Assembly: GCA_014058105.1 (NCBI GenBank)
Contig: JACGCM010000004.1
Coordinates: 744,001 to 808,000 of the forward strand
DNA from: Kingdonia uniflora
Lineage: Eukaryota; Streptophyta; Magnoliopsida; Ranunculales; Circaeasteraceae
Reading direction: 5' to 3'
Length of the DNA stretch: 64,000 nt
Part shown: positions 11,870-61,560 of the stretch, one piece after another
Layout of the letters: each line of letters starts with the position of its first letter
Position numbering within the stretch: position 1 is the first letter of the stretch
Made by a program: the position numbers and the translations under genes
The notes under the pieces: model-generated
What the model saw: the letters and a program-made list of their open reading frames with translations, nothing else
The model's database searches: none
Told to the model about the DNA's origin: nothing

Positions 11870-14393
11870 TTTTACACCCCAAAATCCAATAATCGATAGC
11901 TAGACCAATTACTATCATTCGGGATGTGCAGGTCAGGGAATCCAATCGTTTCACCCCCGCAGTCATATCAACTATAGCAACTGCCAACACCTGGCCATAG
12001 ACAAATTCAGGCTCAATCATTGACTATAGCAATATCATCAGAGTAAAAGTATAAAGCGGAAACAAAAGATATGTATTCATATCAACTAAAAATGTAAATA
12101 TAGTATCACGAATACAAAACAGCTTCAAGAGCTGAGATCATACAAGGAAAATACTAAACCGGCACCGAAACAGCAACTGCCAACACCTGGTACCAACCGC
12201 TAAACCCTCACCAAAAACTGCACTACTCAGCCTCTGAAAGGGGGGAACAAAGCGAGAGTGAGCAAAACCATGGCTCACTAATGCCCAACAAGGCTAAATA
12301 ACAAACTAATATAACAGGTGCATGAAAAGAAAAGAGATGCATGTGATAAGGAATATTTTAAAGCACAGTAATCTATAAATGCCAAAATAGAGTGATATAT
12401 ATAAATGCAAAATAAAGTAAAAGAGGAAATAAGAAAAGGATTAAGAGATATGAAGAATTATCCTGTGATTGTATGATGATATGTTACGATATGATATTAC
12501 GTGGTTCTAAAAATGTCCTAAAATGAATGTTTATGATATTGTGAAATCAAGACTAGACCCTATAAATCAATATAGTGGGCTGATCAACCGCTAATGCATA
12601 ATAACCTTAAAAAGGTCTCAGATGAATACAATGGGTACGATTAGTAGCAAGCTCAACCAAGCTTGGGATTTATCACTTGATCAGAGTATTCTGGGCTTTG
12701 CAACCCACGGAGCCAACGTTCAAACTTTATTTCACATTCCAAGGGATTTCAACCACATAGAGGACTAAGATGAGTACCAAAGGAAAACTATCTCATACCA
12801 TCCCACACTCCCAGATGGGTGAATAGGTATGATAGTACCTGTCCCAAACTCACCCACTTATTTTAACCCGATGTAGGAATTACAGATCCTAACGAGGGTC
12901 AACCGTGTGGAGCTTTGTTATGTATCCTGACCCCGTTAAGTTAAAAGAATATTAAAACCCACACTGCAAACAGATCCCAAGGATCAAAACAACACACCCG
13001 CCAAACCCGGCCAACACACATAAGATAACCACCTGCCTCAGAAGATGGTAAACAATTCTAACATAGATGTAAATGGTGACTAATATACCTAGACACAACA
13101 TCTGACAATCATCAGTCTCTACAAGACCGGAATACAACAGTCAAGGATAAGACCTTGAGATTACCATACTAATGCAAACCCTCCTAAAGAACAAGGAGAA
13201 ACACATCCTATATGCCTAACAATAGGAAACAACAACGCTGAATCAACAACTATGACAAACAAAACAATATAGCTTAAAACCAATCACAAACACTTCAATG
13301 CCAGTATGCACAACTCTAACTAACACAGGTTAAACTAGTATAGGAATTTAACAATAAAGGGACACTCGCCTGAAAAGCGGGCTCGAATTCTGCAGGATAA
13401 ACTTGGAACTCCAACAAACCTCAAACCCAACAAATGACGGAACAACCAACCTCAACACCACAGGCAACAATCACACCAACCTAACAACCCAACAGCTGCA
13501 ACGATGCACACGCAAATCATAAAATCCCAAATCAAACCACAATTACAAACCCTAGAAATGCGAATCATAAATCAGAGAAGAAAGAGGGGAAATACTCACC
13601 GATGAATTGGCAAAGAATCTGCCCAATAACGATCGCCAATCTCCGAGGATCGAGTAAGGATTAAGTAAGGGAGAGGGTTAATTGGAAAGAGAGGGAGTGT
13701 AATGAGAGAAAAAGGAATGAAATGAAGAAATGAAAACCAAAAGGGAGAAAATAATCGCCATACTCGTTCGAACGAAAAGGAAGCCGTTCGAACGAAGTGG
13801 ATATGAAGACAAAAAAAAGGGAAGTTTCTCAGTCGTTCGAACAAAAAAAAGGTCGTGCGAATGGAAAATAAAGTCGTTCGAATTATCCCAGAAGTCGTTC
13901 GAACGACTAGGAGATCTTGGGCTAAATTCCAGGAGATAAGTCGACTTATTCGAACGAAACAAGAAGTCGTTCTAACGAACCACCCCTCAAAGACAAAAAT
14001 TCCAGGGGACATGTCAACTCGTTCGAACGAATCTAAATGTCGTTCGAGTGACTTTCACAAAACTAGAAAAACACTAGGCTCCCCCTGGATCACATGATCT
14101 CCTGAGATCAAACCACCAAAGGCAAAAGCGCAACAACAACAACGACAACCACAACCACAACAACAACAATACCAAGCCACTACGGGCCCCTTAAGAAAAT
14201 AACAACAACAAACTCCTCTGCTCAACCACCGAAACCACCGAACACAGAAAAACACAAAACCTGATAAGAGCAAAGAAAAGAAGATGCAGAAAGTGATGAT
14301 GCATGATGCATGGTACGAATATGGATGCGTGATACATAATGATAAATAGAAATAGAGTAAAATAAAAATAAAAATAAAATCTGGGACACTACA
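11870..14393 (-). mobile_element. solo LTR, gypsy family T (T1, 2.5 kb)
   Basis: 2524 bp on the minus strand, starting TGTAGTGTCCCAG at the right and ending GGGGTGTAAAA at the left (the terminal CA is mutated). Ends match the 5' LTR at 58894-61560 and the larger LTR at 34848-39676. Flanks are CGCCC and TGCCC, a five-base target duplication with one mismatch, and removal restores the LINE reading as at 5160-5200. No internal domain lies inside, so it is a solo LTR. The small open frames in it, some over 130 codons, are not genes. Confidence 0.8.
13767..14095. promoter_or_regulatory. U3 cassette (TTCGAA array) in T1
   Basis: Seven perfect TTCGAA sites (13767-14027), mostly CGTTCGAACGA, including the 14-bp palindrome GTCGTTCGAACGAC. 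CTTGGGCTAAATTCCAGG lies at about 13915. The stretch after the last site (ACTTTCACAAAACTAG ... CCCCCTGGATCA) resembles the first 45 bp of the G LTR at 15500-15540. So about 330 bp of T1 U3 appear related to G U3 although T and G differ elsewhere. Confidence 0.55.
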
Positions 14394-14996
14394 TGCCCCA
14401 TTAAGGCAGTTGAGTTGCAAGCTAAAAACGCAAAGGATGAGGAAAAAAGAGAGAGAATTGAGGATGAAAAATCTTATTACAAAGAAGGCTTTCAAGTTGG
14501 TACCAAGAAGAGTGTGATCTTCAATCAAAATGGCAAAGGAGTGGAGAAGAAAGATGGCTGGGAATATCCCAAATACACTGCATAGAAGAGTATTAGTAAT
14601 AACAATGTTGGTATTACGGTTTTATTCCGGTTGACCTCACCGAGGAGATTGAAAAGATGAATGAAAACCATCCTGTTAGTAACATCAAGCAAGGGGATTT
14701 GGGTTTATCTGTTAGCTTTAATAAGTTGACTTCATGCTCTAATTCGACTAGAGCACGTTCTGGACCTAATGAGAAGGCCAAGGAAGCTAAAACTCTTGAG
14801 AAATAAAAGGCTAAAGAGACTATAGATTAAGAGAAAAAAGAGAAACTTGCAAAAGACTTGGCTATTTTCTTTCCCACTTAGTTATTTGGGCCATTTTGTT
14901 TATTTTTACCCGTGGGTATTTATGTTCCGTTGTTCGTTTCGTTGCACCTAAGGGGTTTGTTGGTGTTATTAATTTAGTTGGTAGTCTTTGTGGCTT

Positions 14997-15001
14997 GGCG
15001 T
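14997..15001. repeat. left target duplication of gypsy G
   Basis: GGCGT here and at 20734-20738 flank the G element exactly. The same pentamer precedes the duplicated G LTR at 5781-5785. Confidence 0.75.
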
Positions 15002-15540
15002 TAATCTACAAAACGATTGAGAAGCTCTAGTTAGTAGAAAAACATGAATAACACCAATTGGTTTGGAAAAGTAGAGAATTTGATTACTAAAACGCAGTAA
15101 CTCCAAAGAAAATCTCTCAACCCTAGGCTTCTCTCAGTACATTTTTTTGATCTAACATAACTTAGAAAATAACCTAAGTTCCCTTTATATACTAGGGAAC
15201 TCAAAAATCATAAAAGAATGGATCTCGAGGCAAAACAACTCCTGAGAATCCAAAATAACGCCAAAGTCATTCGAACGAACTATGGATTCGTTCGAACGAC
15301 TTTACGCCTAATTGGTCAAAACCTTAGAAACTTGCCAGTTTCGTTCAAAAGAAAACACAACTTGTTAGAACAAAATATTGCTTGGGTCAAATTTCCAGTG
15401 GGAAAAACTAAAGTTGTTCGATTGAAAATATGGGTCTTCCGAACATAAAATGGACCTGGGCCAAAATTTTAGTGGGATAGAATTTGGTCGTTCGAACGAC
15501 TTTGACAAATTTCCAAAATACCCTAGATCCTCCTGGATCA
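15002..15540 (-). repeat. G 3' LTR
   Basis: Matches 20174-20733 and 5786-6346. Contains, in element direction, the TTCGAA/GGCCAAA cassette, the TATA box TATATAAAGG (plus-strand CCTTTATATA near 15182-15191) about 80 bp downstream of the last TTCGAA, then the leader. The leader contains CTGAGAGAAGCCTAGGG, conserved in all three copies. Confidence 0.8.
15270..15496. promoter_or_regulatory. TTCGAA/GGCCAAA array, G 3' LTR
   Basis: Perfect TTCGAA at 15270, 15291 and 15491 plus variants (CGTTCAAAAGA, TGTTCGATTG). TTGGGTCAAATTTCCAGTGG lies at about 15384 and GGGCCAAAATTTTAGTGGG at about 15457. Same order as in the other G LTR copies. Confidence 0.55.
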
Positions 15541-15605
15541 TGGCACCTAACTTTAGGAGCCTTGAACTCCTACTCAAGCTAGAACTGGAGATGTGAGAAC
15601 GCGGC

Positions 15606-17000: not shown

Positions 17001-17199
17001 CGCTGTCATACCCTAAAATGTACTCAGAAAGAACAATCGGCTGGATCTACATAGCTACCAACAAAGCAGAAATAGTTGGTAATGGGGGTCGAGATTACAT
17101 ATTAGCCATCATGTTGTACACTCCTTTCTTATACTTGATCAATAAGATAAACTACTACAGGTACGACATTCACTTCATATGGCAAGTTTACTGAAGCTT

Positions 17200-20173: not shown

Positions 20174-20733
20174 TAATCCACAATACGATTGAGAAGCTCT
20201 AGTTAGTAGAAAAACACGAAGAATACCAATTTTTTGGAAAAATAGAGAATTCGATTACTAAAACGCAGTAATTAAAAGGATAATATCTCAATCCCTAGGC
20301 TTCTCTCAGGGCTCTTTTCAGATCTAACATAACCAAGAAAATAACCTAAGTTCCCTTTATATACTAGGGAACTCAAAAATCATAAAAGAACAGATCTCAA
20401 GGTAAAACAATGCCTGAGAATCCAAAATAATGCCAAAGTCTTTTGAACGAACTAGGGATTCGTTCGAACGACTTTACGCCTAATTGGTCTAAACCCTAAA
20501 AACTTGCCAGTTTCGTTCGAACGAAAACACAACTCGTTTGAACAAAATATTTCTTGGGCCAAATTTCCTGTTTGAAAAACTAAAGTCGTTCGAACAAAAA
20601 TATTGGTTGTTCGAACGAAAAATGGCTCTAGGTTAAAATTCCAGTGGGATGGAATTTGGTCGTTCGAACGACTCTCAACCTTGTTTGAGCGACTTTGATA
20701 AATTTCTAAAATACCCTAGATCCTTCTAGATCA
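20174..20733 (-). repeat. G 5' LTR
   Basis: 560 bp. The primer-like TGGTATAAG (plus-strand CTTATACCA, 20163-20171) lies two bases inside. TATA box at plus-strand CTTTATATAC near 20354-20363. Ends exactly at the GGCGT duplication. Confidence 0.8.
20463..20668. promoter_or_regulatory. TTCGAA/GGCCAAA array, G 5' LTR
   Basis: Perfect TTCGAA sites from 20463 to 20668, several as CGTTCGAACGA, with CTTGGGCCAAATTTCC (about 20552) and AAATTCCAGTGGG (about 20635) between. Best preserved G copy of the cassette. It lies directly upstream of the TATA box in element direction. Confidence 0.6.
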
Positions 20734-20738
20734 GGCGT

Positions 20739-25439: not shown

Positions 25440-26378
25440 GTTCTCGACTTCAAATGCGCTTTATTTTTTTTATAAAAGATTCTATTGTTCCGCGTTCACG
25501 TAAAATATTGAATCGTTCGCCTTCGATAGTTGAAGGATCAGTCGGATCGCAGTCTAAGTATGATGGGAATGAACCTCATTCCTCTTCAACAATCATGTTG
25601 TGTATTACGCACTCCTTCATGACATTGTTCAAAACCTTGGGTTTCTACAATTTAACTGGATTTTTTACAATATTGAACTGTGATTATAAAATCCTAAACG
25701 CCCGTTCTACGTCTTTTCAACAATATTTTTGTTGTTGAGCAAATAATTTTTATTTTACTGTAACCGGATTGAATATGGTTTGGACAAGTATTCCCTATTT
25801 GGGGTATATGCCATCTGCTAGGTAATAACCCATATCATAAGTTTTTTCGATAATTGTATAATTGCAAGGCGTGGCGATACCATTGGCCAGGTCGGTGAAA
25901 ATATATAATCGTTGTAGTACATTAATATCATTGCTAGACCCTGGTAACCCAAAAAAAATATACCAAAACCAAAGGTCGTGTGAAGCTACTGCTTCAAGAT
26001 TCAGTGTCGCCTTGGGGTAAATGACCAGTAAATTGGCCGTGTCAAGCTATGGGATAATTTTTCCATATCCAATGCATGCAATCAAGGCTTCCTAACATGC
26101 CAAGAAATCCCTGTAACTCTCCTATCGCTTTAAACCTTTTGACGTCGGCCGCGTTTTGTGCTCGAAGATATTCCTTGCCAAAAATTAGTATAACTGTAAC
26201 ATAAAATCTTTCTATACTTAACAAAGTTATGCTTTCTTCTATTCGAATATACCTGTCAATAAGATCTGCCGCGACACTGTAGCTTAGGAAACGCAGTGCC
26301 GCGATTACCTTTTGGAGCGGTGATAACCCCATAGTACGTTGTTGGGTTTTTGGTCAAAATAATAATTATGTGTAAATA

Positions 26379-27446
26379 CTGTAATTTCTAATTACTTGAG
26401 ACTAACAGATTTTGATTAATTTAGTTCCAAATTAATCGGTTCGGAAAACCTTGAATTAATATTCTAACCCTAGCCTAATTCAAGTTGGTCTAATATTTTA
26501 TTGGCAGCAAGCAAAGGTAAATTAAGTACAAGAATAAGTAATTTTAACTCTGTGGAAAACTTTTCTCAGGTGAAAAACTGGTAGGCCACTGCCGAATCGC
26601 TCAACAGCTAAACAATCCAATATTAAACAAAATTACAATAATTCAATTACTTACAGACTCGATAAGCACATTCCGTGGTTACCTCTCTTCTAATTGAACT
26701 CCTTGCAATCAATTCCACGTTCTCACAATGCTCTTCATTATCGCAACACCTCGCTTCAATCTCCTGTCAAAGTATCCAAGCTTGAAATTCAAAGGCTTTC
26801 TAATTTAAGATTAGGCTTTCTAAATCTCCGATTGATTCAATTTGAGTTTTACTTCGCATTGAATCGCTTGTTAAAATCTCTCTTCTCCTAAATATCAAGC
26901 CCTAGAAAAAAATCTTTTGGAAGAGGTGAAGTCAAAATAAGAAAGGAAGTCTTTTATAAAAATCTAAAAACCTGACCTCTGTTCGAATAGAAAAATAGTC
27001 TGTTCGAACAGACATGGCTTTTATTCGAACAGAGCCAAGATCATATTCGAACAAACAAAATTTTGAGTAACCTGTTCGAACAGAGAAAAAGTCTATACGA
27101 ACAAAGTCTATTCGTAATGAACAAAATCTCAATTCAAATATATAAAGTTCTGAGTCTTCTATTCGAACAGAGAAATTGTCTGCTCAAATAGAGTCAATTC
27201 GAACATACCAAAAGCCTGTTCGACCAGAAACCTTTTTCTCTAAAAGACATCACTTAATTTTTGACAATTTGTAAAACATTCAGGGCTTGATATTTTTGAG
27301 CGAAGAGGTACAAACCTACGTACCTGTTCAATGTCAGTCTAACTATAGTCGCTCAATGTGTAATCTCTGACAACTAGTAACCACGAGGTAGTGCTAACAC
27401 TTATTCTAGACACGGAATAAAACAAAATCCAAATATAGATATTTCA
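26379..27446 (-). mobile_element. solo LTR, copia family C (copy 3)
   Basis: 1068 bp with the C LTR ends (TGAAATATCT ... AGAAATTACA on the minus strand). Flanks AATAC (26374-26378) and ACTAC (27447-27451) form a 5-bp target duplication with one change. It interrupts the Harbinger transposase between its N-terminal region and the DDE core, so it came after the Harbinger insertion. Confidence 0.8.
26982..27203. promoter_or_regulatory. TTCGAA motif array, family C solo LTR
   Basis: GTTCGAATAG, GTTCGAACAG, ATTCGAACAG and ATTCGAACAAA sites in the order seen in the other two C LTRs, with some lost to point mutation. The preceding word CCTGACCTCTGTTCGAAT is shared with 4479 and 11167. Confidence 0.6.
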
Positions 27447-37800: not shown

Positions 37801-39676
37801 TTAACCTTTTACTGACCTAATCACAGATATAACATATTATACTAGGCATTTCTATAACTCACAAATCAGGATAATAATCTAGTTATTCAGGAAGATAAAA
37901 CTCGCATGACGAAACACTTCAGAAGAATCAATCCGAGCAATGCAACTCAACGCTCCATCAACGGCACCTCACGGATAAACACATCCAATCAAACTACTAA
38001 CCAAGCAACACTACACCACCATAATCCTAGCAAACACGATTTAGAGTAAGCACAGCTCAGCCAATCATAACCATAACCTACAATCCAGCCTAACCCAACA
38101 TAATCCAAATCCAATCCACCAATCATAGGTTAAACCAAAACAAAAATCTGATTATCAAATCAGATTATCAAGGAAGGAAAAATAGTTCATAAAAGGAGGA
38201 AAATAGTTTACCAATGGGGAAAAACAGCTAGGCGGTGCGAACTGATTTCAGATCTCCGGAACACCACACGACCTCCACAATCGCTCCACTAAACCCAAAT
38301 CAATAAACAAATCTTCGAGAATCAAACACCAATGACTTATAGCAATAATTACTCTCCAAATCTTCTCAAATCAAATACCAAGCAAGCAAGAGGGTTACAC
38401 TGAACTAAAAATCAGATTGTAAAGTTGTAACAGCAACAGGGAATTACTTACAAAAAAAGGCAGCTGCGATTGGAAATGGATGACGATTAGATGGAGATTG
38501 AAGATGGTTAAAACAGCCCTCCCTCAACACTTCAAAATAGCAACAACAAAGGCGGCAACGACTGAAATAGATCAGCCACAAGGGCGGCAGCAACTGAGCC
38601 GCAACAGTTGCCTCTACTCCCTCTAACAGCAGCAACTCTTCTCTCTCTAATTTGAATAAAAACAAGGACCCCAAAAGCAACACAACAATCATAAACCCTA
38701 AATCAATTCAAGCCTCAAGGTTCCACCAAAACCAAAATCAACCCATAGATACAAGGGAGAGAGAGAAGAATTACTCACCGAGAGAAACTGTGAAGATCAC
38801 GGCGAAGAATCGTGTCCAATTCGACGAGCAAGGCGAGTAGAGGATTCGGTTTGGAGAGGAGAGGATTTGGTTAGGAGAAGAGAAAGAGAATAAAAGAGAA
38901 ATGTGAGGAGAGAGAATGGATAATGATATATATATAATCACCAAGTCGTTCGAACGGATACGAAAGTCGTTCGAACGACCAAGAGGTCTTGGGCCAAATT
39001 CCAGGAGGGATGAATCAACTTGTTCGAACAAAAATAAAACTCGTTCGAACGATAATCTGTCCAATGGCTAAAATGTCTAGAAGACACTGAGATTGTTCAG
39101 AAGACACTGAGATTCGTTCGAACGACAAAGGGCCTCATTCGAACTGAAATCTAGGAAAATCCAAAAATGTCACTTTGAGGTCCTCCTGAACCACACACAA
39201 CTCCAAGACCCTCAGAAGACTGGAACAACCCGAACAACCATCACAGCCCTAACAAAGGGTTCCCAAGGTCTAAACACCACCTCCACCGCTTCATGGCCAC
39301 CAAAATGCTTAAACCCCCGAAAAGGAATCTTTGCTCAGAAAACTTTGAAAACCTATCGGCCAATCCAGCAGCTCACCGGAACAACACCAAACCACAAACA
39401 CAATAAACAAACATCACCACCAACCCATCTAGGGGTTCCCAAGGCCACTACGCCACCTCCTCTTCCGAATTACCACCGAAACTACCTAAAAGGAATCTAA
39501 TATGCAAAACCTGTTGAAAAGAATAAATGGATGCATAATGGATGAAAAAGTACATGCGGAATATATGCGGAATATATGCGCGGAACTTAACGTTGTGGAA
39601 TAATAATAATAATACTTAATAATAAATAAATAAATAAATAAATAAATAAAATAACCCTAAAATTAGGGACATTACA
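34848..39676 (-). mobile_element. solo LTR, gypsy family T, long form (T2, 4.8 kb)
   Basis: 4829 bp with ends TGTAATGTCCC ... GGGCGTGACA on the minus strand and a perfect 5-bp target duplication TAAAT (34843-34847, 39677-39681). Terminal 100-200 bp match T1 and T3 (for instance AAAATCCAGTAATCGGTAGC at the left). It is almost twice as long as they are. I see no gag-pol motif and no second LTR inside, so it is a solo LTR and not a full element. Small open frames inside (up to about 100 codons) are not genes. A GAT microsatellite (35998-36020) and an AAAT run (39620-39652) are present. Confidence 0.8.
38949..39190. promoter_or_regulatory. U3 cassette (TTCGAA array) in T2
   Basis: CGTTCGAACGGA, GTCGTTCGAACGAC, TGTTCGAACAAA, CGTTCGAACGA and ATTCGAACTG between 38949 and 39143, with CTTGGGCCAAATTCCAGGAG at about 38988. 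An ATATATATAT box (38928-38937) follows within about 12 bp in element direction (minus). The stretch after the array (AAAATCCAAAAATGTCACTT, GTCCTCCTGAACC) again resembles the G LTR start. Confidence 0.6.
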
Positions 39677-45150: not shown

Positions 45151-45550
45151 CACCTGATGGAGCAAGAGGTAGAAGCTCTATTATGAAAGAAATATATAGC
45201 AGAACAATTGCTTACAAAAGTATTCAGCTATCTGGGTTAGCTCCTGAAGGGTTTTATCGTGTCATAGTAGATGAGGTTATTCTCGATGATATGTAATTAT
45301 TTATGGAAGGCAGTACTCTAGGTGACATCTCTTCGGGTGAAACTGTAGTATGGTATAAGAGTCTTACCTGCTTCAAGTAAATGTCATCTTTTTATTTTAT
45401 TATTTCTTGAAATAAAATTTGACATTGATATTAGGCAATAACCTTACAATCTTGATGATGTGAAATTATTTATGGAAGGCGACACTCTAGGTGATATCTC
45501 TTCGGGTGAAACTGTAGTATGGTATAAGAGTCTTACCTGTTTCGAGTGAA
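45132..45550 (+). pseudogene. terminal exon of a CACTA gene, TNP1/En-Spm-like (E1 copy)
   Basis: After a splice acceptor (TTTTGTAG) the frame reads AVRYSPPPDGARGRSSIMKE, QLSGLAPEGFYRVIVDEVI, LDD, then LFMEGSTLGDISSGETVVWY and a stop. The pattern (LG..C/F.V.VD.V...D..L ... V.W) resembles the C-terminal domain of TNP1/En-Spm transposon proteins; the assignment is tentative. One Lys codon is now TAA (45291-45299 region), but the same frame is open in the tandem copy that follows (DDVKLFMEGDTLGD). E2 carries the homologous exon at 48290-48400. Confidence 0.45.
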
Positions 45551-45622
45551 CGTCATATTTTTATTTTATTGTTTCTTGAAATAAAGTTTGACATTGATAT
45601 TAGGCAATAACCTTTTAATTTA
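45285..45622 (+). repeat. tandem duplication, 2 x 169 bp
   Basis: The last coding part and 3' flank of the terminal exon are present twice (45285-45453, 45454-45622), nearly identical (GGTGA(C/T)ATCTCTTCGGGTG in both). Only one copy is present in E2. Confidence 0.8.
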
Positions 45623-46248
45623 TAATAAAACTTGTTCTTGTTATTGAAATATGTTGTTTTTATATTAATTGTTTTTTGTTAATGAAATATATAACGATTA
45701 TTGTGATTATGACCCAATTGATATGATTGTTGTATATTGAAACAAAATGGCTGTTAATGTGACAAAAAATAGGAAGTTTATATTTGCGACATAAAATGAC
45801 TAATTGCCATGTCTTAAAATGTAATTATTATGACTGATGTTGTGATTGTTATTTGTGATGTATTTTTTACAACGTATAAAACAACTTATAAATGTATAAC
45901 TAGATATTTCAAAAATGAGCTATTATGATTATTATTTATGATGTTTAAGTTAGCGATGCATAAAACAACAACTTTTATAGTCGTAAAGAATATGAAATGC
46001 GTCAGTTGTTGTGACTAAGCATTGTCATTCTATAGTAACCAAAATAACAACTATTAAAAGGGTCATAAATTTTAGTAAATACGACGAATAATTTGACCCG
46101 CCCTTCAGTCGTTAATTTACGATGTTTTTTAAGTCGATAACATAAAACTACTGCAAAAAGAACGATACTTTTTTTGACTAAAATGGATGTCGCTTTAGAA
46201 AAATCACAACTAACCTACCCCGTCGTTTTTTACTTATTTTGGCCTAGT
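45623..46248 (+). repeat. E1 3' arm with subterminal repeats
   Basis: Homologous, in inverse orientation, to 47606-48235 of E2. Rich in TGTGATTGTTATTTGTGATG-like words and ending in AACGACG/TTTTTTAC and GGCCTAG. Such short subterminal repeats bind the TnpA-type protein in active CACTA elements. Confidence 0.65.
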
Positions 46249-46516
46249 TAACAATGGCCTCTACTAAGCTCTGCTTCACCTAAATACTGACATGGAAAGG
46301 ATATTTCTGACTCGCCTCCTCGGTAGCCATAGTCTGATGAAACATAAGAGTAAGCTTAGGATTCGGTTTATCTAAATCTGGGAGGTCAACAACCGCTACG
46401 GCTAGTGCATATCTCTTCTCCTTCGGCCTGAGCTCGGGGTAAAGTTTCTAGCCCTTATCTAAAATATGCCCACTTGCCTTACAATGACTAAAATAATTCT
46501 CCTTGGATGAAGACTC
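46249..46516 (-). pseudogene. G2 gag/protease fragment
   Basis: Matches G at 18895-19170 (for instance GGCCTC(G/T)ACTA(G/A)GCTCTGC). It is the continuation of the G2 element broken by E1 at 34409. It is cut off at 46516 by an LTR that begins TGTTGGAG. Confidence 0.65.
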
Positions 46517-46676
46517 TGTTGGAGTATATGTGTGCATCTACGCATATACTAGTTTTAGTCCTACATTGAGTAAAAATAAAAATAGTTTAGAGAGCCCCTA
46601 TTATATAAAGGGAGTCTAAAATGTAATCTAATTATCAACTTAAGAGTGAATAAAATTTCTCATCTTATTTATTTCA
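46517..46676 (+). mobile_element. short LTR (160 bp), TRIM- or copia-like
   Basis: Starts TGTTGGAGTATATG and ends TTATTTATTTCA, with a TATA-like TTATATAAAG near 46600. ATGGTATCAGAGC (primer binding site for initiator-Met tRNA) begins three bases later (46680-46691). An LTR of this size is in the TRIM range, though some copia elements have LTRs under 250 bp. Confidence 0.75.
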
Positions 46677-47605
46677 AAATGGTATCAGAGCGGTTATGCT
46701 CTTGAAGACAATGTAAAGCTTTTCCACTTTTGCCGGCGGCCATTACCATCGCCGGATTACTCAAACAGTTTGATTACTTTGCTTTTTGTCTTTATTTATT
46801 ATTAAGAATTAGGGTTTCTTAAACCCACTATTCATATTTTTAATCCTTTTGAGAAGGGGATTCTGATTTCTCTTCTCTCTCTCCTTAGTTTTCTCTAGAG
46901 ATATCTTCTAGCAACCATTAGTTCTCAAGTATTGACTTTTTCTAAGAGTGCATCATCCATGATTTAATTTTTTAATCCTTGAAGTGAACAATCCATCACT
47001 CATGATGAGTCTTTCCATGATTCCACTATTTAATCTCAAGAAACATCGCTTTATCATCTGTTAAGGTTCATAAAAATTGTTTGAAATCGATCATCCCTTC
47101 AAAGTGGTCCTTCCCCTACAATAATTTGGTTAGTAGGGTTGTAATCTTGTTTGTGATTCTTCGGATCTGAAGATTTCTTCATGATTAATGGCTTCAATTG
47201 GAGCTGAAGTTGATGGTGATTACTTGTGAAAAATTGAAGAATATATAGGGTGATTTAGATCTACAACTCCTCGAAGATTTATCATTTTCTTCGGAAGTTT
47301 AGATATCTATTTATATGGTTCTAATAAAACCTATCATAGCTGAAGATCTGAGTTTTATTAAAGTTTATCAATCAGTTCTCTTTGTCGATTGAAGTTTGGT
47401 TTATTAACAATTTTTCTCGTTGTGGCTTCCTGGTTTTATTTGACTGATTACTGCTTGCTTTTAAGTTCAAGTTTCCCCAAAAGTCTGTAGATGCAGTTTT
47501 AAGAACTGTACTATTATTTCCCGCGTACTCTTTAAGTTTGGTTGGTACTGGAGGAAGATAAAATTTCTAATTACCCTGGTCTTATTCCTTTTTGGTGGCC
47601 TAAGA
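46677..47605 (+). mobile_element. internal leader of the short-LTR element
   Basis: After the primer site there is no readable gag up to the E2 insertion at 47606. The sequence may continue after E2 (54885-55017). No second LTR was found, because a Helitron follows. The element is thus truncated or a non-coding TRIM. Confidence 0.4.
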
Positions 47606-48235
47606 CACTAGGCCAAAATGAGTAAAAAACGATGAGGCGGGTAAGTCGTCATTTTGCTAAAGCGACATCCATTTTAGTCAAAAAACATTGTTCTTTTTAT
47701 AGTAGTTTTATGTTATCGACTTGAAAAGCGTCGCAAATTAACGACTGAGGGGCAGGTCGAAGTGTCCGTCGTATTTGTTAAATTTTATGACCCTTTTAAC
47801 AGTTGTTTTTTTGGTTGCAATAGAATGACACAATTCTTAGTCACAGCAACCGACGTATTTCATACTCTTTACAACTATAAAATTCGTTGCTCTATACATC
47901 GCTAACCTAAACGTCGAAGTATATAATAACACGTTTATAAGTTATTTCATACGTCCTAAAAAATACATCATAAATAGCAGTCACAACATCAGTCATAATA
48001 ATTACATTTTAAGACATGGCAATTAGTAATTTTATATGTCGCAAATATAAGCGTCCCAATTTTTGTCACATTAACAGTCATTTTGTTTCAATATACAACA
48101 ATCATATCAATTGGATCATAATCACAATAGTTGTTATAAATTTCATTACTAAGAAGAAATTAATGTAAAAAATAACATATTTCAATAACAAGAACAAGTT
48201 TTATTATAAATTGGCGTTCACTCGAAACAGGTAAG
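47606..48235 (-). repeat. E2 3' arm with subterminal repeats
   Basis: Inverse copy of 45623-46248, beginning CACTAGGCCAAAATGAGTAA. With the E1 arm it forms an inverted repeat with about 1.4 kb between the arms. Confidence 0.7.
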
Positions 48236-48289
48236 ACCTTTATACAATACAACAGTACAGCAGTTTCACCTGAAGAGATGTCACTTAGA

Positions 48290-48400
48290 GTATCGCCTTT
48301 CATAAAAAATCACACATCATCGCGAATAACCTCATCTACTATGACATGATAAAGCCCTTCAGAAGCCACCCCAGATAACTGAATACTTCCCTAAGAAACT
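48290..48400 (-). pseudogene. terminal exon of the CACTA gene (E2 copy)
   Basis: The frame reads QLSGVASEGLYHVIVDEVI, RDDV, then a stop where E1 has Lys or a stop, followed by GDTLSDISSGETAV. Differences from E1 are partly at third codon positions, which suggests the exon was coding in the common ancestor. Confidence 0.45.
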
Positions 48401-48837
48401 GTTCCACAACATTAATGTTTAAAAGATGTTATAAAATATTACCAAAAAACACTTCCTCATAAAATATTATCACAGACTGTAAATTACAAATTAAAATTCT
48501 TTGGTTCAAGTAAAAAAATCATGATAAATGTAGGATCACTAGGGTCTATTTTTTGAACTGGATATCTATATTTTGTTTCATTATTGCCTAAGACATACTT
48601 TCGGGGCTTGATAAAACCGTTACTCTTGGAAAGATCATCAAAAGGATCTTCAAAATAGCATCTACAAGACCACAACTAGTGAAGATTCAGAAGAATGAGT
48701 TCAGGTTGGGACGTGTCCGTATTTTAGCCATCTTTGAATGGTGGCATAAATCTGGATATGAATGTTTTCAATTCTCTAATACGTGTAACTGAAGCTTTAG
48801 GATAATGCAGTTCAAAAACAAACTTGATGATCTTGGC
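48401..48837 (-). other. E2 interior, unidentified exon-like frame
   Basis: A minus-strand frame (48484-48675) reads RCYFEDPFDDLSKSNGF and RYPVQKIDPSDPTFIM. It is not recognised. It lies between the F5/8C exon and the terminal CACTA exon. Confidence 0.3.
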
Positions 48838-51274: not shown

Positions 51275-53014
51275 CTTCTAAGTACAACCACACCATCTTT
51301 GGCTTTGAGAATCAGCTCCCCAACTGTCACCGTTCTCATCAACCGCACCATCTTCTTCCGTCGCGCCCATTCTACAACTCCCCATCTGATGTGCAGAACA
51401 GTAGATGTTCTAAAACTCTCCGTTAGACTTTGGCCCTCCACAAGGTATTAATGTATCTAATAAAATCCTTCAGTTCTTCTCATTAACCCCTTTACACATC
51501 ATTCTCTGCCCATCACTTTTATTTATGTCAGCCCTGGTGGCTCTAGCTGCAACTAAAATTTGTAACGCCGTTCGCATACCTGTTTTAAGATTTTCTTTAT
51601 CAGAGGGATAAAGTTTGTAACTTATTCTTCCCTCCTGCTTCACTTCTCCTAACCCTTACTCTTTCACCAGTGTAAACAAGTGAGCAGTTCTTAAATACTT
51701 GAGAAGTCTTTTCTTTACGTCGCGTCCAAATACCCAAGGCAACAATACACTGAAAGAAGCTGGCCCAAGGGTAGGTACTTCTATGACAGTTTGAACATCG
51801 GATTCAAATTTGTGGGATGATATTTTGTGAAGTGATGTGATGATTCCTCCTTGAAAAGTTTTCCCTGGAAGGTCTGTCAATGTTTCCGGGAGATATCCCC
51901 AAACCATTAGGACAGGATGAAGATGAAGGTTTTTCCCGATGTTTGGGTTCTTTAACCCACTGGATAACATTAGAGGGGGCGTTAAAAGAGACCCGGAGGC
52001 GGATATCATTACCTTAGCCTTGATTTCTAGTCTCTTTGTGATGTTCTTATTTGAACAAATAGATGCTATTAGTCCTGCACATTTCATCTTTCTTATTCGC
52101 ACAGAGTGATTCTTTTCGAGTATGAATCTCTCAGCTTTACATCCTGTCAAGATCACAACACCGTTACCTACGGCACTGATCAGCCAAGTTATATCAGTCC
52201 CTCGTTTATCGCCTACTTCACAACCATAGCAATAAGAACTGCAGGAGTGATCCTCAGAGAAATTTCATGGCACGTACTCGACTTTCAGGCCAATATTCTT
52301 GTACACTTTTCTAAGTACTTGGTTCTGAAAGCCTTCTTCGGAACATCTTTCTGTAACTCCTATTCTTTTACACACGATATCAATAGCAGAATCATTGTCA
52401 GAGCTCCCGAGGAACATAATTTTGTGATCTAATGCCCATTTCTTAAGTAGAGAAGTTGATGTTTTAATCGACGCAGACTAGTTCACGGCCGAGTCACCAC
52501 CAACCGTGGATCCTACCAACTTCATACATTTCCCGTCGAGAGTAGACAAGAACCCTCTTGATTCATATAGTTTGTTCATTGAAAGGCCTTCCAGAGATGA
52601 ATAATCTTCTGCCATAAAGTAATGCCCTTTCTCAACAACAACAACTTTCTGCCTTGACTTTGCAAGAACTGCAGCCGTAGCTCCTCCTCCACAGCTAGGG
52701 CCAACTATCACAACATCACATTCTATCTTGAAAACATTAAGTTTTCTATCTTCAATTACTTTTAGGCCTTTTTCTATAAGGGAGTTAACCAATGTAGTAT
52801 CACTTTCAAATGAAGTTTCTATAATTCCCTTCCGAAGAGGCCTTTCTTTCTTTGGTTTGATCAGGTTTTCCTCCTCTAATTGATACCCCATCGCATCCCA
52901 TGCTTGTGAATCTTCATTAGTCCTTGATAAGTAGATGAAGAAGCAAAAGATCTTCAACATCACAAAGATGATTCTAAGAGTTGTAAAATATGTCTCCCTT
53001 GACCATCTATCCAA
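51275..53014 (-). pseudogene. FAO: long-chain fatty alcohol oxidase captured in E2
   Basis: The minus-strand frame runs from RETYFTTLRIIFVMLKIF (membrane-like helix, 53014) through CDVVIVGPSCGGGATAAVLA (FAD-binding loop, first Gly of GSGCGGG changed to Pro), [70 protein letters not shown], to the GMC C-terminal block [30 protein letters not shown], where it ends. This is the FAO family (GMC oxidoreductase; oxidises long-chain alcohols with oxygen at the ER or peroxisome membrane). About 580 codons remain of some 750. The N-terminus and the end are missing, and several stops (for instance Trp to TAG after GGDSAVN) break it. Confidence 0.85.
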
Positions 53015-54375
53015 AACTCTTTCACTATATAGAAGCTCACAATAATATAATAATTCTCCATACCTGGTGGTTTATAAGGAACCCGAGGCTAGTACTTTCT
53101 CGGATGAGTGTCAGGTGGTAACGATGATCTATCTTCGCTCGACATAGATACTATAGTAGGTTTCAATATAATGGGATGGTATTGTAATTTTGACAATGCA
53201 GTTTATATCTAAATCTCATAGTAAAATATATAATTAAATGTCAAACTAAAGTAAAAATTAAATATACTTGATATGTGCAACAAAGAAAACTTGGAGTAGG
53301 ACACTCATCAATATTGAAACTACTAAAACATTTCCCACAATTAAAGAAAAATTGTAAGACTTAATGTTAAATGGAGATATGAATCAGGAAAGACATCTAC
53401 ATAGTTCACAAAGCATTACACCCTTCAAGAAATTGCAGGCACAACAAAGCTCTCTCTACACACAACATGCACAACAACATAACAGATTTATAGGTGATTA
53501 AAGCTCTAAATGTAGAATGTAAACATAAAAAAATAATAAATATCAAAAGCTTCATATGGGAGCTTCCTACAGAAAGTAAGACCAAAATTTGATGTGATGG
53601 GGTAACCCTATAAAATCCAGGAAGTGTAGGCATTGGTGAAATCTTTAAAGATTGGGAATGGGTCGTGTTAGGCATTTTTAGAAAAACAGTTATATTCCCA
53701 GCACCAAACTACATACAAGAGATACAATAAATTATACAAGGTGTGGATAAAATAGTTCAAAGGGGATGTAAAAGACTATGGTTAATACAAAGACTATGTA
53801 ATCTAACCTCTTGCAAGGAAGACGGTGAGATTTATATAGTTAGAGAAGGCAACTACAATAAATCTGAAATCAGTAAGAAACCCTAGAAATCTAACATAAA
53901 AAAACCCCAAATACTAACAAAAAGAAGAAGAAAATCCCTGAATTCTGCATTCAAGATTAATAAACCAATTGGATTTAGTAGAGAAAAAAAATTAACAAAC
54001 GAAAAACCATAAGGTTACATACCTCTTTCTACTTTTAAAATTCCATGTAATCTCACACTGTTTCCCAGCTAAATCAAGAAGCTTTCACTGTAAGGAATAA
54101 AATATGATGGAAAGGAAATCCATAAGAAGTTCTCTATCCTAAAAACTTTCAACTAAACTTTAGTGAAATGAAAAATAGAAGGGGAAAATTAGATGATCCT
54201 ACTGCCAATAAAAAACCTTATTACAACAAATCCCAAAAACACAATACCGATCTCCATCTTCTATATCAATAAGCAAAACACGGATGGGTGATACGAGAGA
54301 GAAATATATAACAAAAATTGGTGTGAATATTGTTTGGAGAATTAAAATTCAATTAAAAATCAGAGATTTGCAGAG
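53015..54375. other. E2 spacer between FAO fragment and 5' arm
   Basis: AT-rich with no recognised genes. It may be 5' flank of the captured oxidase or CACTA internal sequence. E1 has unrelated sequence at this position. Confidence 0.35.
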
Positions 54376-54996: not shown

Positions 54997-55017
54997 ATAT
55001 ATATATATATATATATA
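54997..55017. repeat. AT microsatellite at the Helitron insertion site
   Basis: A run of TA dinucleotides. Helitrons insert between A and T, so this is a natural target. Confidence 0.8.
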
Positions 55018-55350: not shown

Positions 55351-55424
55351 GAGGACCCAATCCAAGGTATATTATGCAGAGGACCCAATCCAAGGTATAT
55401 TATGCAGAGGACCCAATCCAATTG
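55351..55424 (+). repeat. 28-bp tandem repeat, about 2.6 copies
   Basis: GAGGACCCAATCCAAGGTAT plus eight bases recurs at 55351, 55379 and 55407, nearly identical. It lies in the non-coding 3' part of the Helitron. Confidence 0.85.
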
Positions 55425-56869
55425 CATAATTTCAACACTTAAGACACCACTTGGAAGGAGCAACGATATTAAAAGTCCATAGACTCATTACGGGTCAAAG
55501 ATATTAATAATGTAGATACTCTAACAATTTACCACACTGAAGAGGAATTACCACACTTGGAAGCAACAAACACATAAAAGATAACCTCAAGAAACAAAAA
55601 AAAATGTTAAACGTATAAGCTAAAGAAAAGTCTTTGTTATGCTCTATCTTCATTAACATTAAAGACAAAGTAAACATAATAAGGCAAGCTCGGTATTTGG
55701 AGATCATCTAGAAGGATTCATGGCAACCGCAACATGATCTGCATTAAACATTGGAGAAGATCTGCTAATTTACAATTTTCATAACTTCGTGTACAAATTT
55801 GTAATTACTATGTTGGACTAAAAATATCTCTTAAAATTTACTTCTTAGTCAGCGTTAGACATTTGTGGACATCGTTTAGAGTAGTGTTTTGTTTATTTCA
55901 TTTTTTGTCAGAAAGCCCTCATCAGTTGAAGTTGACATTGAAGATTTTCTCTATAAATTTTATTGAAGAGTAAAAGAAATTAGTATAATTATTTTAACAA
56001 AATTTTATAATTGCTTAAATTGCATATATATAGTTAGTAAGAAATATTGGCGAGTGCATAAAATTAATACCTTCAAGCTAGTTTGACAATCGCATGAACC
56101 TTTTCTCGAATTATTTGTATCATGTTTTGTATGTTACAAATTAATTATTTATTTGAATAAAAATTCTAAAAATAGCATGAATATATCTATAATATATATG
56201 TAACTTACACATGATGTTTTGTTCGCCAACTCAGTAGACTCAAGCGTAGCGTCTATTGCCCATAATTTTGATACTGTAAAGTCCTTTTCCCACTTGCTAT
56301 ATTATAATCAGTTATTTTAAATTGGAAGATGTATGTAGAACCAACTAACTTTTGAATAACTTTTTCAACAAAGTCATGCCAATTTTCCTATAAGTTTTGA
56401 TATGCAATCATTGGGAAAAAATTTAGAGTACGTAAAAATAATGAGAGAATAAGCTATAAATATATGTAATTGGTCATAATATAACAAATTCATTTTGAAT
56501 ATATGCTTTCTTATAGAGTCAAAAGCTGATTTTCTTACCTCCCGTTCCTGGTATATTTGTTCTTGTACTGATTGTGGAATCATTGTCTTTGCATATCTTT
56601 CAAATGTTGTTAGAGTTGTAGTTCCTGTTAGATCATCAACTTGCAACTGTAACTTGTACTTGCATTTTAGTATAGCTTATTAGAATATATTTTCATTCAT
56701 GTTTAATAAAAATAACAATTTTTTACCTTGGGACAGGGTTTGTTAATTGAGATTTATAGAAATTGTAATTGTATTTAGTGTTTGCATGAATCACCTTCCT
56801 AAGACATTTTAGACATGATAGATAGTACCATCCGTATGTTAGGAATACGGCTCAAAAACTGGGGAAAGT

Positions 56870-56947
56870 CATTCGATCGAGTGGGGAAGTCGTTTGAACG
56901 ACAGAGTTCCGTTGAAGTTGCTCGAACGACTCAGGAAGTTGTTCGAA
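56870..56947. promoter_or_regulatory. TTCGAA array remnant, D 5' LTR
   Basis: ATTCGATCGAG, CGTTTGAACGAC, GCTCGAACGAC and GTTCGAACGAC: one perfect and several mutated sites, colinear with 57888-57960 in the 3' LTR. Confidence 0.45.
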
Positions 56948-57039
56948 CGACTCAAGAAGGAAACCTTGAGTTTTGAGAAAGTTGCAAGTACGCCTCTTTC
57001 CGAGAAGAGAAGGCTTAAGGGTAGCGAATCCTTGGGGGA

Positions 57040-57690
57040 AAACTCTGTAATGGTAGCTAGTAGGAAGAGAAGCTTTAATAGGTTCAGAAAAGGAATTTTT
57101 TGGAGTTGTGGTCAATCGGGTCATTATAGATTGGATTGCAAAGCGGGGAAAATTTTTTTAAGAAAGTTTGGCATGAGGCTTCGAAAGTGACATTAACAAA
57201 CTGGCAATGGATACTAGGTGTGATGGTAACGAGGTACTCCTCGTGGTGGTCGCTAATGGTTCTCGCCACAATAGAGGATGGGTGTTTGATAGTGGGGCTA
57301 CAATGCATGCATGTGCACAAAAGGCACGGTTCAACAATTATTCAAGATGTGAGGGTAGCAAGTTTGCGTTAACGAGCAATGGCTCTCGAAGGCCGATTTT
57401 GGGAGTAGGTGATATTCGCTTGAGGATGTTCGATTGACGCATGTTAGTTTTTTATGATGTTCAATATGTGCCGAGTATGACTCATAATCTAATTTCACTT
57501 TCTAAATGAGATAATGAGGGTTGTAATTACTCCCGGCGAGGTGGAGTAATGAAAGTTTATCGGAAATCTTCTTTGATCATGATGGGAGCTCTAAACGGGA
57601 ACTTGTATGCGTTTGGCAATAAATCAATGGGTGGAAATGTGAAGGTTGTGCGTTCCAAGGGAGCTTTGGATATTTCTTGAAAGTGGAATT
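57040..57690 (+). pseudogene. copia D gag zinc knuckle and protease fragment
   Basis: FWSCGQSGHYRLDCKA (near 57100) is a copia zinc knuckle whose first Cys is Phe. WVFDSGATMHACAQKARFNN (near 57280) is the aspartic protease core with intact DSGA. YDVQYVPSMTHNLISLSK (near 57455) and GALNGNLYAFG are the gag-pre-integrase block that follows protease in Ty1/copia elements. Stops after MFD and SLSK break the frame. Integrase and RT are deleted. Confidence 0.75.
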
Positions 57691-57852
57691 TAGTTAAAGG
57701 TGGAGTAATGGCACGGTCTACAAAGATGGTCAAAAGTTGGTTTCGATTGTTGGATCTAGGAAAAGCCAAGACTCGGGTAATTCTCTTAATTGAGAAGTAA
57801 CGAGGATACACGACGATTGCAGAAGAAATTGTTTTATTACCGAGGTAAAGAT

Positions 57853-58524
57853 TGTTAGGAATACGACTCAAAAAATAGGGAAAGTCATTCGAACGAGTGG
57901 GGAAGTCGATCGAACGGCAGAGTTCTATTGAAGTTATTCGAACGACTTAGGAAGTCGTTCAAACGAATTGAGCCCTTGGGCCAAAATTCCAGAGAGTTGG
58001 AAAAAGTTTGTTCGAATGACCTAATGACTCGTTCGAACGAAAATGGCTCTGTTTGGTTATTTTTATGTTTGCTTCAAATGGGATTTAATCTAAAGCAATG
58101 GATTATCTTGGGATGCATACTTTTGAGATGACCCAATAGAAAACCTATAAATAAAGAGGCTATGTTAAAGGCCTCGGTACTGTGAGAAAGAGTTAGAGAG
58201 AGAAAAAGGAGAAATCTAGGGTTTTGCTCTTGAGAGATTTCTTGGGTTTTTCTTTCTAGGGTTTCTTGCTGGGGTTTATCTGTAAGGGTAGAGGTGAAGT
58301 TTGATTGATCTCTAGAACTTCTTGTAGCCCTTAGTGTGATAATATATTCGTCACGCTTGTCGGGGGTTGGTTTTCCCCTGTTTAGAGTTTCCACCTAATT
58401 TAAACCTTGTGTATGTGATTTATTGCTTTGGATTGAATTATTTGTGGTTAGTTTATAGATATTTGGTTCTTGCTAAATCGTATTGTGCTTCCGCGTTGTG
58501 ATTTGCCCCCTCGGTTTCCCGACA
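57853..58524 (+). repeat. D 3' LTR
   Basis: 672 bp, TGTTAGGAATACG ... GTTTCCCGACA. TATA box CCTATAAATAAAG at about 58141, 100 bp downstream of the last TTCGAA. The downstream leader has CTAGGGTTTT repeats. Confidence 0.75.
57888..58037. promoter_or_regulatory. TTCGAA/GGCCAAA array, D 3' LTR
   Basis: CATTCGAACGAG, TATTCGAACGAC, TGTTCGAATGAC and CGTTCGAACGA with mutated sites between, and CTTGGGCCAAAATTCCAGAG at about 57974. Relative to the element direction this last word is inverted compared with G and T, as expected for an orientation-independent enhancer. Confidence 0.6.
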
Positions 58525-58893
58525 CCATAATTTGCAAAGACCTTTGTGATTGCTGCTTTGCAAGTATAATTTTTTTCCTATGGCTAAAAATCGAAGTGCC
58601 CATAAATAAAAGGAAAGTAAATTTTATGATATATATGGCAGATATAATTGTACCTTACTGTGGGATTCATCCATAATAGTGAAAATTTCACCTAATTCTT
58701 TTATATTTTCAAACATCAAATCTGCCTTGATTTTCTATACTTATGTCTGTATTCCCGGGCATTTGTACCGAGCCATCACACGTAAAGGATTTCACTGAAA
58801 TTAAAATGGCATTGAATTAGATTTGTTGTTTGATTAAAAATTCTACGACCCTGTTAGAAAAATGTTATTACTAAACCTGTTTAAGAGCGTTGA

Positions 58894-61560
58894 TGCAGTG
58901 TCCTGGATTTATTATTATTATTATTATTATTTATCTATTATCATTTAATTTTATTCATTATGCATCATGCATCCACATACATCACCGTTCATCATGTATC
59001 TGCATCTTATTGCATTGTCAGGGTTTTGATTTCATCTTTCTTCATTTTCTGTATTCTAGTGGCTTCGGTGGTTGCTGGGCGGAGGAGGTTGTGTTGAGGT
59101 TTTGGAAACCTGTGGTTGGCTTGGTGGAGGTGTGTTGTTGATGCTTTAGGTGGTTGTGTAGTGTGGTGTTTGATCCAGGAGGGATCTGAGGATTTCCTTA
59201 GTTTTTAAAAGTTTTCATTGAGTGGAATCTTTTGCCCAGCTTTCTGTTCATTTTTGTTCGAATAACTCCTTTTCTGTTCGAATAAATTTCTATCTGCTTC
59301 ATTTTATTCGAACAACTTTCTCTCTATTCAAATAGATTTCCAACTGTTTCATTCTATTCGAGCAACCCTTTTTTCTGTTCGAATAGATGTCAGTTAAGTT
59401 GATTTCTAATAGTTTCAATATATTCAAACAAACTTGTCTCTGTTCGAATAAGTTACTACCTGCTTCATTTTATTCGAACAAGCTTGTTTCTGTTCGAATA
59501 TGGTTCATCCTGTTTTGTTTTGTTCGAATAAGAGTATGTTCTGTTCGAACAAAGGCGTGCTTTGACGACCAGGTTAGGTCTTTTCATGTGATTCTTGGCC
59601 GTTGGTTTGCCTAGTGATGAGTATTGGAAATTAGGGTTTTAATTACCTATTTCATTCTCTCACTCTCTCTTACACTCTCTCTCTTACTCAGTCTCCAAAT
59701 TGGAAACCTCTCTTCTATTACTTGCCGATTCATCACATTTCCTTGCTGAGCTTAGTCGCACTTCCTTTAGTGAGTGATTTCCCTATTCCTCTCCTTATTG
59801 TTGGTTCAATTTTGGCCTTGGTTGGAACCCTTGTGGCTTGTGATATTTTCGGGTTTCGTGATTTGGGTATTTGCTGAGATTAAGGAGTAATGTTTGTTGC
59901 AGGTGTTGGGTTATTCGCGTTGATGTGGTTGTTGCCTACGGTGTTGCGGCCTTATTACCCTGTCGATTGTTGGTTTGCGGTTTGTCTTTATTAGGTGAGT
60001 GTTCCTTCCTTGCCATATTCCTTTTACTAATTTGATTAGTGTTGATTTAGAGTAGAACTCTAGATAGCGAGGCATTTGTGATATAGTTATAGTCTTTATT
60101 GTATTCTTCAGTAGTTGTTATTCCAGTACAACTTTTCCTATTGATAGGCATGTAGACTGGTGTTCTCTTTATCCTTTTGGAAGTTGTGCATTTGGGTGGT
60201 ATTCTCGTGGCTTTGTCCTTGAATACTGTGTTTCAATCTTGTAGAGGCTGATGTTGCTAAGATGTTGTGACTGGTGAGTTACTATTTGCATCTGTGTTAA
60301 GATTGTTTACCATCCACTTTGGCAGGTGGGTATCCTACGTAGGCGGTGTTTGGATTGTTATCCATCCACTGAGGCAGGTGGTTATCCTATGTATGTGCTG
60401 GCCACATTGGGGCTGCTGTGTTTGGATTGTCTACCCTTTTCTCCGACAGGAGGATATCCTATGTGTGTTGGCCGTGTCGGTGGCTGTTGTGTTTTGATCC
60501 TTGGGATCTATTTGCGGCGTGGGTTTTTGTATTCTTATAAATTAACCAGGTCGGATACATAGCAAAGCTCTGCATCGGCTAACCCTCGATAGGTTTTAGG
60601 ATTCCTACATCGGGTTGAAATAGGTAGGTAAGTTTAGGATAGGTACTATCATGCCTATTACCCATCTGGGAGTGTATAGATGGTTTGAGACAGTTTTCCT
60701 TTGGTACCCATCTTATACTACATGAGGTTGAAATTCCTTAGAATTGTAAATAAAGTTTGGACATTGGCTCTGCGGGTTGTAAAGCCCGAAACACTTTGAT
60801 CAAGTGATAAATCTTTTAGCGCGGGCGAACTTTACAGAAATCGTACCCATTGTATCCATTTAAGATCTCTTTAAGGTTATTATGCATAAGCGGCTGATCA
60901 GCCCAATACATTGATTTATAGGGTCTAGTCCATTGGTTCATCACATCATAAAGCATACCCATTAGGACAATTCAAGAATAATATCATTTCACATCATACC
61001 ATATCATATCATATCATCATATCTTATCATCACATCGACATATATTCTCTATTCCTCTATTTCACGATCCATCTATTCTACACTTATATATTACTATATC
61101 TTTAAAATCTTATATTTCATTCACCTCTTCCTCTTTCTCGGCACCATTTTATTATAAGGTTATTTAGCTTTGTTGGGCATTAGTGAGCCATGGTTTTGCT
61201 CACTCTCGTATTTTCTCCCTTTCAGAGGCAGTGTAGTTGGTGGCTTTGCTGAGGGTTTCAGCTATGTTGGATCCTGTTTTGGCTGCTGCAGATCTGTTCT
61301 TGTATTAGTTCTTCTTGTACAATCTTAGCTTTTTTAGCCGTACATTATCGAGATATTGTATTGATATTTTAGTTTGTTATATATATCTTTTGCTTTCGCG
61401 TTTAATCTTTTTACTCTGATGATGTTGCTATAGTGAATGACTGAGCTATTTCCTATTAGCAAAGTCATTTGTGGGGGCAAATCTTTGGATTCCCCGACCT
61501 GCACGCCCTGGATGACATTATTTTAGATATGCTCTAATATTTTTATTTTGGGGCATGACA
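58894..61560 (+). mobile_element. 5' LTR of a gypsy T element (T3)
   Basis: 2667 bp, TGCAGTGTCCTGG ... GGGGCATGACA. The inverse copy of T1 matches it at both ends and through landmarks such as the ATGCATCATGCAT zone (58955-58975). The primer site follows at 61565. A TTA microsatellite lies at 58905-58930. The short frames inside, such as the one at 60267, are not genes. Confidence 0.85.
59257..59549. promoter_or_regulatory. TTCGAA motif array, T3 LTR
   Basis: Nine perfect TTCGAA sites plus variants in under 300 bp, nearly all as CTGTTCGAATA or TTATTCGAACAA alternating, the same flanking bases as in copia C and unlike T1/T2. A CT-rich stretch (59655-59695, CTCTCACTCTCTC) follows where transcription would start. 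Confidence 0.6.

Follow-up and report, generated by a model that had tools for sequence, protein, structure and literature searches.

Helically phased TTCGAA palindrome arrays in the U3 regions of copia-type and gypsy-type retrotransposons of Kingdonia uniflora

Several families of long terminal repeat (LTR) retrotransposons in the genome of Kingdonia uniflora carry dense arrays of the palindrome TTCGAA. In the 64-kb stretch of contig JACGCM010000004.1 that was analysed (positions 744,001 to 808,000, referred to as the window), these arrays sit in the U3 region of copia-type (families C and D) and gypsy-type (families G and T) elements. Such arrays had been predicted from the letters of the window alone; beyond that original prediction, the palindromes prove to be spaced in register with the DNA helix, to come in two versions, and to be accompanied in several families by a shared TTGGGCC block. 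Judged from these features, the arrays are probably upstream activating sequences of the LTR promoters, each serving as a multi-site enhancer for a candidate dimeric factor bound on one face of the DNA, and would have spread partly by exchange between families. No description of TTCGAA arrays in LTRs was found in the open-licence literature.

The arrays that had been predicted were all found in their places. The window contains 80 copies of TTCGAA against 19.7 expected from dinucleotides, and 67 of these fall within 12 arrays that together span 3,452 bp, a density of 19.4 per kb. Since the remaining 60.5 kb holds 13 copies where 16.4 are expected, TTCGAA outside the arrays of the window is no denser than chance and is not equally abundant in its non-array DNA. 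Pairs of TTCGAA 20-21 bp apart number 25 in the window, with none off the arrays. Counted per array, the exact palindrome occurs 3 to 10 times in most cases and once or twice in D1 and B; of the D sites predicted at 56870-56947, that at 56942 is exact, whereas all others are one-base variants. The proposal of five unrelated host families holds in so far as several families are involved, but their number is nearer four to five, as B and C are alike over short stretches (74.7% over 87 bp for C1 and 72.8% over 114 bp for C3).

Genome-wide counts refer to the whole K. uniflora assembly (1.003 Gb), with the same pattern read backwards as the control for motifs and spacings. The species is confirmed by a plastid matK stretch of 388 residues from this assembly, which matches Kingdonia uniflora (Ranunculales) at 100% identity, ahead of Euptelea (80%) and Circaeaster (78%). 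The string GTCGTTCGAACGAC occurs 7,938 times, compared with 3 for its reversed control. A sample of twenty 10-kb stretches, spaced evenly along two contigs, yielded 84 TTCGAA versus 57.6 expected, with 3 pairs separated by 20-21 bp and recognisable arrays in three of the stretches (loci L015, L020, and L022). This modest excess, together with arrays in only 3 of 20 stretches, indicates that the window is unusually rich relative to the genome. A chance origin of the arrays was rejected on the window counts and on the genome-wide pair counts against reversed controls given below. An origin in known viruses was likewise rejected: 35 viral-contig stretches contain GTCGTTCGAACGAC, each as a single site and none arrayed. 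The 64-kb window gave neither a tRNA nor, at gathering thresholds, any match to Rfam.

The host elements were typed by comparing ten stop-free pieces of the window with Pfam, of which six matched a family and four had no match. Family C gave a match to the copia-type gag Retrotran_gag_2 that stays below the curated cut-off (22.9 of 27 bits), while D matched Pol_BBD, which we take to be a copia-type domain, above the cut-off. RVT_1 above the cut-off and a weak match to Ty3_capsid (22.4 of 29.1) come from pieces assigned to G by their position between G2 and G3, and T3 matched both Retrotrans_gag and RVP_2 above the cut-off. These assignments are in line with the predicted promoter-proximal U3 module common to copia-type and gypsy-type families. 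Its location just upstream of a TATA box or a CT-rich start region, called by eye, was borne out for C3, G1, G3, T2, and D2 (TATA) and for T1 and T3 (CT-rich), but neither was established for B, C1, C2, or D1. At two other loci, L033 and L036, GTCGTTCGAACGAC sites belong to a repeat with abundant CCGGTT-like sequence, and the 1.3 kb viewed shows no evident features of an LTR; this repeat is a possible non-LTR home of the motif.

The most regular property of the arrays is the spacing of their palindromes. When the separations of TTCGAA sites are tallied across the fetched loci, peaks appear at 20-21, 29-30, 41, 50-51, 62, 70-74, 80, 91-95, 101-102, 113, and 121-123 bp, with few or none in between (for instance, one at 23-28, none at 44-47, and none at 54-58 bp). 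For 184 distances from 18 arrays, the best period was 10.3 bp with a power of 47.2, against a maximum of 14.4 in 500 sets jittered by up to 5 bp. A second test on 74 adjacent distances, from 15 arrays picked to span the groups (some of them of the same family), returned a period of 10.30 bp and R = 0.76 at phase zero, against a maximum of 0.40 in 2,000 null sets. Genome-wide, 47,555 pairs lie 20-21 bp apart (control 575), 13,211 lie 29-30 bp apart (control 579), and 1,661 lie at 25-26 bp (control 406), the listed ones of which include other repeats. One of these, at L008 5050-5400, combines TTCGAA with CTGTAGCAG-like units and supplies some of the 25-26 bp pairs. Because odd turn numbers (3, 5, and 7) make up 32 of the 74 adjacent distances, the phasing is more than the repetition of a 20-21 bp unit; duplication of such a unit is disfavoured as its cause by these odd turns and by the pairs at 29-30 bp.

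Two versions of the motif can be distinguished, version A being TCGTTCGAACGA and version B about YTRTTCGAAYAR, both of them symmetric (41 A and 48 B sites). Their flanks are symmetric as well, and spacer columns are mostly low in information (71 pairs); the core and near flanks are kept and the spacers vary from site to site. As to the centre bases of the palindrome, 89 TTCGAA stand against 17 TTTGAA and 13 TTCAAA in 4,632 bp of arrays. The latter two are 4-5 times denser inside the arrays than outside and may be decayed TTCGAA, and TTTAAA is not enriched. The B box of RNA polymerase III promoters has the consensus GWTCRANNC. It was rejected as an identity for the motif in view of its ninth-position C, since the base two positions past TTCGAA is mostly G in version A (36/41) and mostly A in version B (43/48).

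In the window, version A occupies G1-G3, T1, T2, D1, D2, and family B, and version B occupies C1-C3 and T3. Version B was also found at L020, in a G-family LTR 78.3% identical to G1 over 240 bp downstream of the array, and at L015, in a D-family LTR 81.0% identical to D2 over 452 bp downstream of the array; at L034 both versions occur within one array. L020 and L015 align with G1 and D2 despite their version B arrays. Both versions are thus represented in each of the families D, G, and T. Versions A and B replace each other within one LTR family, and homology is retained elsewhere in the LTR. Off the window, element X, with G-type LTR ends, a polypurine tract, and a primer binding site, carries version B arrays in both LTRs (89.5% identical), and element Y, nested in X, carries version A arrays in both of its LTRs (96.4% identical over 692 bp). 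Element C in the window likewise has arrays in both LTRs.

Sharing between families extends beyond the palindrome itself. In 112 masked cross-family comparisons (56 array pairs in both orientations), in which TTCGAA and its one-base variants were masked and the GTCG/CGAC flanks left unmasked, 21 scored above z 3.5, several of these matches being the unmasked flanks. The gypsy-type G1 and the copia-type D2 have CTGGAATTTTGGCCCA in common with 16/16 identities (z 9.2 against 60 shuffles), and T1 with D2 reached z 11.2. The version A arrays of G, T, and D share the block TTGGGCCAAAATTCCAG, of which the genome holds 815 exact copies (411 on one strand and 404 on the other) and none of the reversed string. 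Read in element sense, D carries the block in the opposite orientation to G and T. Of 13 block matches among the fetched loci, many of which were chosen for version A, 12 have a TTCGAA that begins 20-22 bp ahead of the block. We take the TGGGCC of this block to resemble the TCP "site II" element. In unmasked alignments, blocks of roughly 105 bp recur across families in both orientations.

The original prediction had proposed a module spread by recombination or maintained by strong selection. Signs of both are seen, the G1/D2 block speaking for the former and the replacement of versions amid varying spacers for the latter, but not a single shared cassette, from which the version B arrays stand apart. 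Length, site number, version, and the orientation of the cassette all differ between arrays, at odds with one later insertion of fixed boundaries inside each LTR.

From these features we infer protein binding, promoter activation, a host origin of the factor, and selection on the sites. Briefly, the palindrome suggests a dimer: a putative DNA-binding factor, most likely host-encoded, that would read about 10-12 bp centred on TTCGAA. The in-phase repeats would line up several dimers along one side of the helix at intervals of 2, 3, 5, or 7 turns, and the promoter-proximal position would allow them to activate the nearby promoter jointly. Version A arrays would in many cases add TTGGGCCAAAATTCCAG as a second site, locked in phase with the dimers. 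Copia-type and gypsy-type families would keep the module because it drives their transcription, having gained it partly by exchange of U3 segments and partly by selection that remade sites in place.

Selection was also approached through the CpG of the core. In nine pairs of copies, with gaps and mutations other than deamination left out, the CpG inside TTCGAA was deaminated in 9/50 cases compared with 60/154 for other CpGs (p = 0.006) and 11/24 for other TCGA (p = 0.023). The test is weak since five of the nine pairs involve loci picked for an intact version A motif, with X and Y picked from intact pairs. For C1/C2 and G1/G2, which were not picked in this way, the figures are 3/15 versus 23/43.

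A number of observations weigh against the proposed activator. No plant protein for TTCGAA was found in the open-licence literature. Many of the version A loci (L028-L047) were picked for holding GTCGTTCGAACGAC, and the version B arrays (C and T3) did not exceed z 3.5 in any masked comparison with another family. Past the start of the shared block, the next TTCGAA follows at 29-33 bp in only 8 of 13 matches. The 10.3-bp period would equally fit a rotational setting of the DNA on a nucleosome. In the pair G1/G3 the two classes of CpG do not differ (0.25 and 0.25 of CpG columns), and CpG conservation as a whole lends weak support to selection.

The closest precedent is the repeated motif of the Sirevirus elements, and the Kingdonia arrays may work like it. 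According to excerpts of Bousios et al. (2010, PMC2829016), the Sirevirus motifs are palindromes present in high number (by definition no fewer than eight per element), which occupy the upper half of the LTR ahead of a TATA box, form CpG islands, and have been proposed to be regulatory; 12 of the 13 listed elements have a CGG-CCG core, and the motif was reported as specific to these copia elements and absent from the others compared. The Kingdonia arrays are alike in that a dyad-symmetric motif is repeated upstream of TATA (C3, G1, G3, T2, and D2). However, their core is TTCGAA, they are found in gypsy-type T3 (Retrotrans_gag and RVP_2) and G (RVT_1) as well, and they show a helical spacing of which the same excerpts make no mention. 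Lacking two defining Sirevirus features, they are not filed as a member.

Among the alternatives, the arrays could be an anti-silencing platform recruiting a factor, possibly element-encoded, that keeps the LTR unmethylated, which we regard as unlikely. The model for it is VANC in the VANDAL transposons: in the portion of PMC5735166 available, VANC arrays of VANDAL21 are likewise dense, fast-changing runs of a short motif in non-coding DNA of a plant transposon, and VANC21 depends on motif density. A CpG in every core and its lower deamination relative to other CpGs would suit this role, but most of the pairs in that test were chosen for intact sites, and G1/G3 had no effect. Moreover, the VANC motif is an asymmetric YAGTATTAY in one orientation, confined by the same text to non-coding parts of one DNA transposon family that encodes its own anti-silencing protein, whereas the motif here is symmetric, promoter-proximal, and present in several families of two LTR superfamilies.

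The candidate dimer could also be a heat shock factor (HSF), an identity that falls within the proposed activator and appears quite improbable. Activation of LTRs by HSFs is known in principle, ONSEN being an example, and in TTCGAA the half-sites TTC and GAA abut where two bases would normally part them, so that the arrays could be read as ungapped heat shock elements. The extended TCG/CGA or YTR/YAR flanks are foreign to such an element, and the strict phasing between palindromes is a further difference. As far as the consulted part of PMC11267843 goes, heat shock elements have a two-base gap, human HSFY2 can use ungapped arrays, and TTCGAA occurs among the 8-mers to which two Phytophthora HSFs bind; but only a few HSFs bind ungapped arrays, Arabidopsis HSFC1 is named with gapped targets, and a basic leucine zipper (bZIP) 8-mer, GTTCGAAC, is likewise reported.

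It is very unlikely that the arrays are a silencing or insulator platform by which the host recognises and represses these LTRs. A motif common to several families would suit a host recognition signal, but elements could escape through site loss, and instead the sites multiply, in phase, at the promoter. No more credible is the absence of any function, with a degenerate satellite moved between LTRs by recombination or template switching and phasing as a by-product of unit duplication. Local duplication does occur, as in element Y, where a unit has copies about 90% identical 71 bp apart, and the recurrence of the 105-bp blocks between families fits such movement; yet the odd turns and the 29-30 bp pairs do not follow from a 20-21 bp unit, and information is held in core and flanks with little in the spacers. 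Finally, TCX/LIN54 of the DREAM complex, whose CHR site TTYRAA covers TTCGAA and would take in the enriched TTTGAA and TTCAAA, is a most improbable binder and is disfavoured by the centre bases, as the accessible text of PMC4974476 has LIN54 prefer at least one central A-T pair, with TTCGAA a weaker site, whereas the arrays have a CG centre with extended symmetric flanks, 89 TTCGAA against 30 of those variants, and no enrichment of TTTAAA.

The coordinates of the arrays and of the LTRs that hold them are collected in Table 1.

Table 1. TTCGAA arrays and associated LTRs in the window (positions of the 64-kb stretch).
Feature	Positions	Strand	Details
B family array, version A	2400..2580	+ (inferred from L040 match)	exact sites 2433, 2454, plus decayed
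C1, LTR of copia-type C, taken as 3' LTR	3882..5188	-	86.8% identical to C2; extent from homology only
C1 array, version B	4440..4830	-	10 exact sites, 4488-4785
G1 array, gypsy type, version A	6030..6345	-	exact sites 6076, 6223, 6297; GGGCCAAAATTCCAG at 6243; TATA ~5972-5979
C2, 5' LTR of element C	10564..11874	-	then primer binding site 10550-10561, 1 mismatch
C2 array, version B	11130..11500	-	10 exact sites, 11176-11452
T1 array, version A	13740..14080	-	7 exact sites, 13767-14027; LTR start near 14394
G2 array, version A	15250..15540	-	3 exact sites
G3 array, version A	20430..20735	-	5 exact sites; TATA ~20357-20364
C3 array, version B	26950..27240	-	7 exact sites; TATA ~26952-26961
T2 array, version A	38930..39200	-	6 exact sites; TTGGGCCAAATTCCAG near 38989; TATA-like run ~38926-38937
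D1 array, copia type, version A	56837..56970	+	exact site 56942, plus decayed
D2 array, version A	57853..58070	+	4 exact sites; TTGGGCCAAAATTCCAG near 57976; LTR ~57854-58523; TATAAATA at 58146
T3, 5' LTR of gypsy-type element	~58895..61560	+	perfect TGGTATCAGAGC primer binding site 61565-61576; gag and protease pieces downstream
T3 array, version B	59230..59570	+	9 exact sites, 59257-59549

Aside from these elements, the window contains an open piece at 25798-26353 (-) which, like another at L015 3473-4261 (-), we presume to resemble a PIF/Harbinger-type transposase nuclease. Two open pieces at 51659-53071 (-) presumably resemble parts of a plant long-chain alcohol oxidase gene. In the region 45202-48404, a 169-bp unit is duplicated in tandem at 45281-45618 (91% identical) and has inverted partners near 47607-48404. 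Elsewhere in the assembly, 24 matK matches lie on contigs C965, C196, C918, C264, and others; several of them have internal stop codons, which suggests copies of plastid DNA in the nuclear assembly.

Tentatively, the proposed activator can be taken one step further, to a scenario that we consider possible though doubtful: copia-type and gypsy-type families would have converged on, and would trade, one enhanceosome phased to the helix and serving one regulator, and the presence of both versions side by side in D, G, and T would record a change in the DNA specificity of that regulator, or a switch between two paralogues, which the elements followed. If true, the genome would preserve the history of how transposon promoters kept pace with a transcription factor. 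Spacing-constrained enhancers shared between Ty1/copia and Ty3/gypsy elements would show the LTR control region evolving as a tradable module, independent of the element proteins. The tens of thousands of pairs at 20-21 bp and the two versions amount to a natural mutagenesis series, which could serve to work out a binding grammar and to test a candidate factor. Should a single factor do the binding, it would give one point of access to several retrotransposon families of the same genome.

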